Source: Planctomycetota bacterium
GTDB lineage: Bacteria > Planctomycetota > Phycisphaerae > UBA1845 > UTPLA1
Assembly (NCBI GenBank): GCA_003576905.1
Contig: QEVG01000009.1
Span: forward strand, 62,001-126,000
Length of the DNA: 64,000 nt
Reading direction: 5' to 3'
Part shown: positions 37,986 through 39,039 of the stretch, one piece after another
Position numbering within the stretch: position 1 is the first letter of the stretch
How the letters are laid out: every line of letters begins with the position of its first letter
The notes under the pieces: model-generated
What the model saw: the letters and a program-made list of their open reading frames with translations, nothing else
Told to the model about the DNA's origin: nothing
Databases searched by the model: none
Translations under genes and position numbers: made by a program

Positions 37986-38016
37986 AAAAAAAGAACCGTG
38001 GCATGCGTGCCACGGT
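37986..38016 (-). terminator. Rho-independent terminator of the selenoprotein-candidate gene
   Basis: Reading leftward: a perfect 9-bp stem (ACCGTGGCA and TGCCACGGT, plus-strand 37995-38003 and 38008-38016) with a 4-base loop, then a T-rich run (37992-37986 with TTC before it). On the plus strand the same hairpin is not followed by T residues, so it serves the leftward gene ending at 38077. Confidence 0.8.
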
Positions 38017-38076
38017 CCATGTTCGTTCCTGCGCGGCGGGGTTGAACGATCCCGCGCGGCTTCGCCGTTGGCAGAC

Positions 38077-38955
38077 TCAGGAACCCGAACCTCCTTCGAG
38101 CCTTGCCAGCTCTTTTCGGGCCGTCGCCGCATGCTCGGATTCCGGGTACTTCTCCGTGACCTTTCGCAGGTACCGGATCGCGTCCTTTTCGGCGCCATTG
38201 TCCGCAAGGGTTCGCGCCATATCCAGCCACCGCCGGGCGTTCCGGTTCGCCTCTTCCGTGCGGATGGCGGTCATGATCTCCGGATCGGCCTTCATCTTTT
38301 TGATCTGGGCCTTGGCCGTCTTGGCACTCCTGGTGCCGGCGAACTCCTTGGCGACCTTCTCATAGCCCTGCATCGCGCGGGCGTATCGCTTCCGTTTCAG
38401 GTGGTTGTCGGCCTTCTTCAGCGCCGCCTTGGCCGCCTCGTCGCCCAGGACGCCTTTTCCCTTGGGAGGGCTCTTCTTCAACAGCTCATCGATCGCTTCT
38501 TCGGCTGCCCCAGGGTGTCCGATCCATGCGATTTTCCCGGCGGGATCAACCAGAAACGCGGTCGGGAACCCGTTCACGCCGTAGGCGTCGCGGGCACTCG
38601 TGGCGTCGCTGCCGACGATATAGGACATCTTGTTCTTGGTGACATAGGGGCCGACCTTCCCGGCCGGCTCATAGGAAAGAGCAACGAGAATGACACCCTT
38701 GTCCTGATACTTCTTTTGCATCTGAACCAGATGCGGAATGCCTGCGCGGCACGGCCCTCACCATGTCGCCCAGAATTCCACCATGACGATCTGACCCTTC
38801 AGATGCGCCGGGGTCAGACTCTTGATGCCCTTCGGGAGGTTGTACCAAGAGCCCGCGCTTACTGAGGGGGCCTTGTCGCCCACGCGCACACCGGCCAGTC
38901 CGGGCGCAGCGAGCGCAAGGACAAGGGCGGATGCGATTATTCCGCTTCGAGTCAT
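38077..38955 (-). CDS. Candidate selenoprotein: exported TlpA-like thioredoxin with a UxxC motif
   Basis: A 292-residue exported redox protein if TGA at 38760-38758 is read as selenocysteine (residue 66). A signal peptide (MTRSGIIASALVLALAAPGLAG) precedes the TlpA/AhpC-like domain: VGDKAPSVSAGSWYNL, VMVEFWATW-U66-G-P-C69-RAGIPHL, then VALSYEPAG and the cis-Pro region NGFPTAFLVDPAG. A TPR-like Lys/Ala-rich tail covers about residues 160-290. The frame continues for 226 codons after the TGA, and the TGA replaces precisely the first Cys of WCGPC. A perfect hairpin at 38718-38734 fits a SECIS. The ATG at 38955 has AGGAG upstream. A nonsense mutation of TGC is the alternative; selenocysteine genes are not in this window. 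Confidence 0.8.
38718..38734 (-). promoter_or_regulatory. SECIS-like hairpin 23 bases after the in-frame TGA
   Basis: GCATCTG-GTT-CAGATGC in mRNA sense: a perfect 7-bp stem whose apex reads GGTTC if the closing G-C opens. Bacterial SECIS elements lie inside the coding sequence just downstream of the UGA and carry GU in the apical loop. Here the GG of the apex follows the TGA by 29 bases. The hairpin encodes part of P-H-L-V-Q-M-Q. Confidence 0.65.
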
Positions 38956-39039
38956 ACGGCGTAGTCTCCTGTTCCGTGTTCGTTCCTGCGAAGGGGGCGA
39001 TAGGAGCACGGCCCGGCGCCCCTCCGACTCTCCACAGTA

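Follow-up and report, generated by a model that had tools for sequence, protein, structure and literature searches.

UxxC selenoproteins of the TlpA/redoxin type have already been catalogued in reviews (PMC13188914, PMC9312934), and Table 1 of PMC13188914 lists both a thiol-disulfide isomerase-like selenoprotein (cd02966, UxxC) and a Redoxin family selenoprotein (PF08534, UxxC). The predicted protein considered here, which is encoded within a 64,000-nucleotide stretch of planctomycete DNA (hereafter, the window), thus belongs to a known kind of selenoprotein. Compared by description, it has the same TlpA/redoxin thioredoxin fold as these entries, with selenocysteine (Sec) as the first residue of UxxC, but it adds a C-terminal helical TPR-like fusion, and its genes come from one bacterial family. 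The NCBI family NF041054 (WAxxUGC_long) is likewise ResA-like, with Sec following a WAxx motif and with extra C-terminal sequence; however, its motif is UGC whereas that of the window protein is UGPC (UxxC), and the match of the window protein to this model (7.4e-11, residues 48-272) reaches 41.9 bits, well short of its curated cut-off (300). Similarly, the window protein resembles ResA, TlpA and DsbE (CcmG) in fold, in the position of the WCxPC site and in the cis-Pro region, but differs from them in having a predicted Sec where they have the first Cys, a TPR-like C-terminus, and a gene without adjacent cytochrome-maturation genes; its score against the ResA equivalog NF002854 is 77.4 bits, with a curated cut-off of 170. 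In the open-access literature on selenoproteins in Planctomycetota or Phycisphaerae we found no description of the family of the window protein. Judged by the sequences compared, the features that are its own are the TPR-like fusion, the occurrence of the full-length TGA form within one family as searched, and the predicted exchange of Sec and Cys among its relatives.

The sequence-only reading of this DNA had described a leftward frame that starts at ATG 38955, meets its sole internal TGA at 38760-38758 and then runs on through 226 open codons. This layout was confirmed, except that the final stop, which had been called TAG-type, reads TGA. The context of the internal TGA, FWATW-TGA-GPC-RAGIPHL, also proved to be as described: the TGA takes precisely the place of the first Cys in a FWATW-C-GPC site of the TlpA/ResA type. 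The features of the gene are as follows:

38077..38955, minus strand: coding sequence read through the TGA, 292 residues with Sec at 66 and a TGA stop at 38079-38077 (full-length homologue alignment)
38758..38760, minus strand: TGA codon 66, the putative selenocysteine codon, aligned with TGA in seven other homologous genes and with TGC or TGT in four
38749..38760, minus strand: UGPC active-site motif, residues 66-69 (sequence reading and alignment)
38966..38970, minus strand: Shine-Dalgarno-like AGGAG, 10 bases before the ATG (direct reading)
37993..38018, minus strand: intrinsic-terminator-like hairpin followed by a T-run, downstream of the gene

Similar Shine-Dalgarno-like motifs lie upstream of the homologues as well. 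An open frame of this kind would be seen under any code that gives TGA a residue, and two explanations that dispense with selenium, general readthrough and a genome-wide reassignment of TGA as Trp, Cys or Gly, would account for it too. However, the gene's own stop codon is TGA, with a terminator-like hairpin after it, many of its homologues likewise end in TGA, the Trp beside the internal TGA is coded TGG, and the internal TGA sits precisely at the redox-active Cys column, in a genome that has a complete Sec trait. We regard the probability of such readthrough or reassignment as practically negligible.

Selenocysteine machinery was looked for in the window's own genome, a 97% complete assembly of 4.71 Mb in 65 contigs. 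This check had been proposed with the original reading, and SelA, SelB, tRNA-Sec and SelD were all found to be present. SelA was matched at 4.9e-136, and the C-terminal wing domain of SelB (1.8e-16) lies within an open frame of 666 codons that immediately precedes selA. The tRNA-Sec scores 66 bits against a gathering score of 47 and was confirmed by ARAGORN, with the anticodon TCA. SelD (1.6e-107; locus L011, G000:C48:154742-155659) has an in-frame TGA of its own at CAG-U-AGK, the usual Sec site, which agrees with the UxxK motif given for selenophosphate synthetase (PMC13188914), so that the genome has at least one further predicted selenoprotein. Although SelD belongs to an unrelated protein family, it is like the window gene in having an in-frame TGA followed, at a similar distance, by a hairpin with the loop sequence GGUU at its apex. 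Furthermore, SelA is found in 16 of the 17 genomes of the GTDB family, the exception (G005) being a 75% complete assembly.

Sixty relatives were searched for homologues, and full-length ones were found in the same GTDB family. Column 66 is TGA in eight genes (the window gene, L022, L023, L051, L028, L029, L030 and L031), which come from seven genomes of several genera, in separate assemblies, G008 having two of them. Three homologues (L024, L025 and L026) have TGC there; of two tandem copies in G012 (L052), the first has TGT. The G012 homologue had first been flagged as a TGA form, but its active site is actually TGT.

The existence of Cys homologues, and the fact that a single base change gives TGC, are what one would see if the TGA stood for an original TGC, through nonsense mutation or sequencing error, and the gene were a pseudogene. 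Close relatives with a Cys codon, combined with further disabling changes in the window copy, had been named as grounds for abandoning the Sec reading; in the homologue alignment, the closest relative (65% identical) has TGA, not Cys, and the window copy has no other disabling change. The same TGA recurs in the eight genes and seven separate assemblies listed above, and the frames beyond it are open in every TGA homologue. Compared with the 65% identical homologue, dN/dS (Nei-Gojobori with Jukes-Cantor correction) is 0.11 for the part before the TGA and 0.21 for the part after it, ratios that are rough because dS is high. Purifying selection acts on both parts, and its presence in the second speaks against a pseudogene. 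Orthology is supported by common neighbours. Among the genes that flank the window copy, a RidA-like and a DinB-like frame, named from sequence reading, are examples of those that the homologues in G001 and G008 have next to them too; G010 shares the DinB-like one.

All four genomes with a Cys form keep SelA; the Cys forms are therefore not a reflection of loss of the Sec trait, and Sec is not essential to the protein. In the second tandem copy of G012 (L052:2838-3788, G012:C380), which lies beside the Cys (TGT) copy, the motif has become FWGTSSRASVR while the remainder is conserved, and this copy is probably a redox-inactive paralogue. Long acidic C-terminal tails are seen in L024, L025, L026, the second copy of L052 and L023; the window protein has no such tail.

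A candidate SECIS hairpin lies shortly after the TGA:

38718..38734, minus strand: SECIS hairpin GCAUCUG-GUU-CAGAUGC, +27 to +43 counted from the T of the TGA

Across the eight TGA genes, 53 of the 56 pairs possible at this fixed position are formed, compared with 41.5 +/- 2.7 in synonymous recodings, none of 5000 of which scored as high; the recodings also indicate that the peptide alone favours some pairing here. In the alignment, 94.6% of the cells over the hairpin are paired. Two pairs are changed on both sides, +30/+40 from U-A to C-G or A-U and +33/+37 from G-C to C-G, and the covariation score of 0.270 was equalled in none of 500 shuffles (0.098 +/- 0.043) and was lost when the partner was slid by one to three columns. 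Since the TGA genes are related, these two double-changed pairs amount to few independent events.

The bSECIS model of PMC13188914 requires a loop of 3-9 nt with G in its first two positions, a stem of 4-16 bp, a spacing of 16-37 nt and an energy of at most -7.5 kcal/mol. In a re-implementation of this model with perfect stems, the window hairpin was accepted (loop GUU, 7 pairs, spacing 30 nt), its energy of -7.8 kcal/mol being near the limit of -7.5. All eight TGA genes fit the model, with energies from -7.8 to -9.8 kcal/mol, although in L029 the fitting hairpin is displaced a little. SelD fits too, and so do the seven further TlpA-like genes with a TGA that are described below. Conversely, none of the four Cys genes fits, nor does the presumed inactive paralogue or the terminal TGA of the window gene. 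As 9.7% of the 1817 TGAs on both strands of the window also pass, the model by itself is weak evidence for a single gene. The folding energy of the 48-nt region, relative to synonymous sequences, is weakly significant gene by gene, which is why the case made here relies on the fixed hairpin and on its comparison with the Cys genes. The first Cys copy of G012 keeps six of the seven pairs at the fixed hairpin position, possibly a remnant of a former SECIS.

Among the homologues, then, a hairpin of the SECIS model is confined to TGA genes. Together with the conserved TGA, selection downstream of it and the complete Sec machinery of the genome, this makes a nonsense mutation or sequencing error very unlikely. 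The same four lines of evidence support the proposal that the TGA is read as selenocysteine 66. We are highly confident of the reading as a whole, as drawn from sequence: UGA 66 would be decoded as Sec by way of SelB and the hairpin, in what is probably an exported oxidoreductase of the TlpA/ResA type with a TPR-like C-terminus. SelB, carrying Sec-tRNA-Sec, would bind the hairpin just downstream of codon 66, and selenocysteine would be inserted there instead of a stop, as machinery, hairpin and conservation suggest.

The predicted protein divides into three parts:

38893..38955, minus strand: probable signal peptide, residues 1 to about 21 (sequence pattern), MTRSGIIASALVLALAAPGLAG
38461..38883, minus strand: TlpA/ResA-like thioredoxin domain, about residues 25-165 (Pfam, alignment, Foldseek)
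38089..38454, minus strand: C-terminal all-helical TPR-like region, about residues 168-289 (Pfam TPR_6/TPR_14, model helices)

Pfam models run across the TGA in the read-through protein (AhpC-TSA, PF00578, 2.3e-16, residues 25-144; Redoxin, 6.5e-15; Thioredoxin_8, 1.1e-9), the site is of the WCxPC type, and the cis-Pro candidate P131 is invariant in the homologue alignment, in line with the thioredoxin signatures that had been noted on both sides of the TGA. The C-terminal region has NCBIfam matches of the YbgF/BamD type that are under cut-off. AlphaFold2, run on the alignment, gave a mean pLDDT of 88.5, with a thioredoxin fold, a helical C-terminus and a disordered N-terminus; the low confidence over residues 1-20 is what a signal peptide would give. 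The best solved structures found by Foldseek are DsbE-like proteins and ResA, the majority of the top matches having a TM-score by target length of 0.73-0.84. In NCBIfam, ResA gives the best match (1.2e-21). The label TlpA-like is thus borne out by Pfam, NCBIfam and fold comparison, and the label exported agrees with an N-terminus that looks like a signal peptide; the protein is probably exported and extracytoplasmic.

From the fold, the family matches and the N-terminus, the protein is most likely a thiol-disulfide oxidoreductase that works outside the cytoplasm, where it would probably reduce disulfides or oxidised thiols. Sec66 would be the attacking nucleophile and Cys69 the resolving residue paired with it, while the TPR-like region may bind partners. 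Among the adjacent genes, no partner in cytochrome maturation or disulfide exchange was found. The best Pfam matches, AhpC-TSA and Redoxin, could also point to a selenoprotein that works as a peroxidase or donates electrons specifically, and not as a general thiol-disulfide oxidoreductase; the frequent use of Sec in the reduction of peroxides would favour such a role. However, the UGPC spacing is that of the TlpA/ResA thioredoxin motif and not of a peroxiredoxin active site, and the nearest solved structures and the best NCBIfam match are, as above, of the DsbE/ResA type; we therefore consider a peroxidase or specific donor unlikely, and retain a general thiol-disulfide oxidoreductase as the preferred function.

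A DNA pattern for FWAxxU(G/A)PC gave 14 matches in 12 of the 397 genomes of the class, compared with one match for a reversed control pattern. Together with the eight homologous TGA genes, this excess over the control shows that the placement of the TGA is no accident. Outside the group of the window gene, the matches are L054 and L055 (the same loci as L149 and L150), L142, L143, L144, L145 and L154; these seven are TlpA-like frames that continue past a TGA at the first active-site Cys. Their motifs are FWAVKUGPC, FWAVFUAPC, FWAYGUGPC, FWASWUAPC and FWAVGUGPC, a SECIS-like hairpin accompanies each, and several of them have a lipoprotein-like N-terminus. On a tree of 73 thioredoxin domains, a switch between TGA and Cys is required seven times, and at least four of these switches fall on well-supported branches, which indicates that Sec and Cys have repeatedly replaced each other.

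It is a tentative proposal, for which we would claim slightly less than an even chance, that the window protein represents an undescribed family of selenoproteins, TlpA-like with UGPC and a TPR-like region and found in one bacterial family. Several related thioredoxins of the class would likewise be exported and use Sec, so that the extracytoplasmic thiol chemistry of these bacteria would run partly on selenium, with repeated exchange of Sec and Cys between near relatives. Automatic annotation cuts such genes at the TGA, so that the active site is lost and the redox repertoire of these bacteria is undercounted. Furthermore, the occurrence of TGA, TGC and TGT at one column, in relatives nearly all of which have SelA, constitutes a natural experiment on when Sec outvalues Cys, and the same homologue set offers another on the rate at which a SECIS hairpin decays after Sec has been given up.

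A single-protein scan of a collection of genome contigs found no relative. An alignment scan that used Cys codons only, and could therefore return only Cys forms and say nothing on the frequency of TGA forms, gave many matches in Planctomycetota, the best named one being a Planctomycetota MAG (L062, 53% over residues 25-165). Two paralogues in the genome of the window itself, L016 and L017, were rejected as selenoprotein candidates; their active sites are TGC, and the TGAs that had been flagged are terminal stops. The same genome has two further loci, L060 (G000:C30) and L061 (G000:C35), with paired nearby TlpA-like genes of the Cys type.
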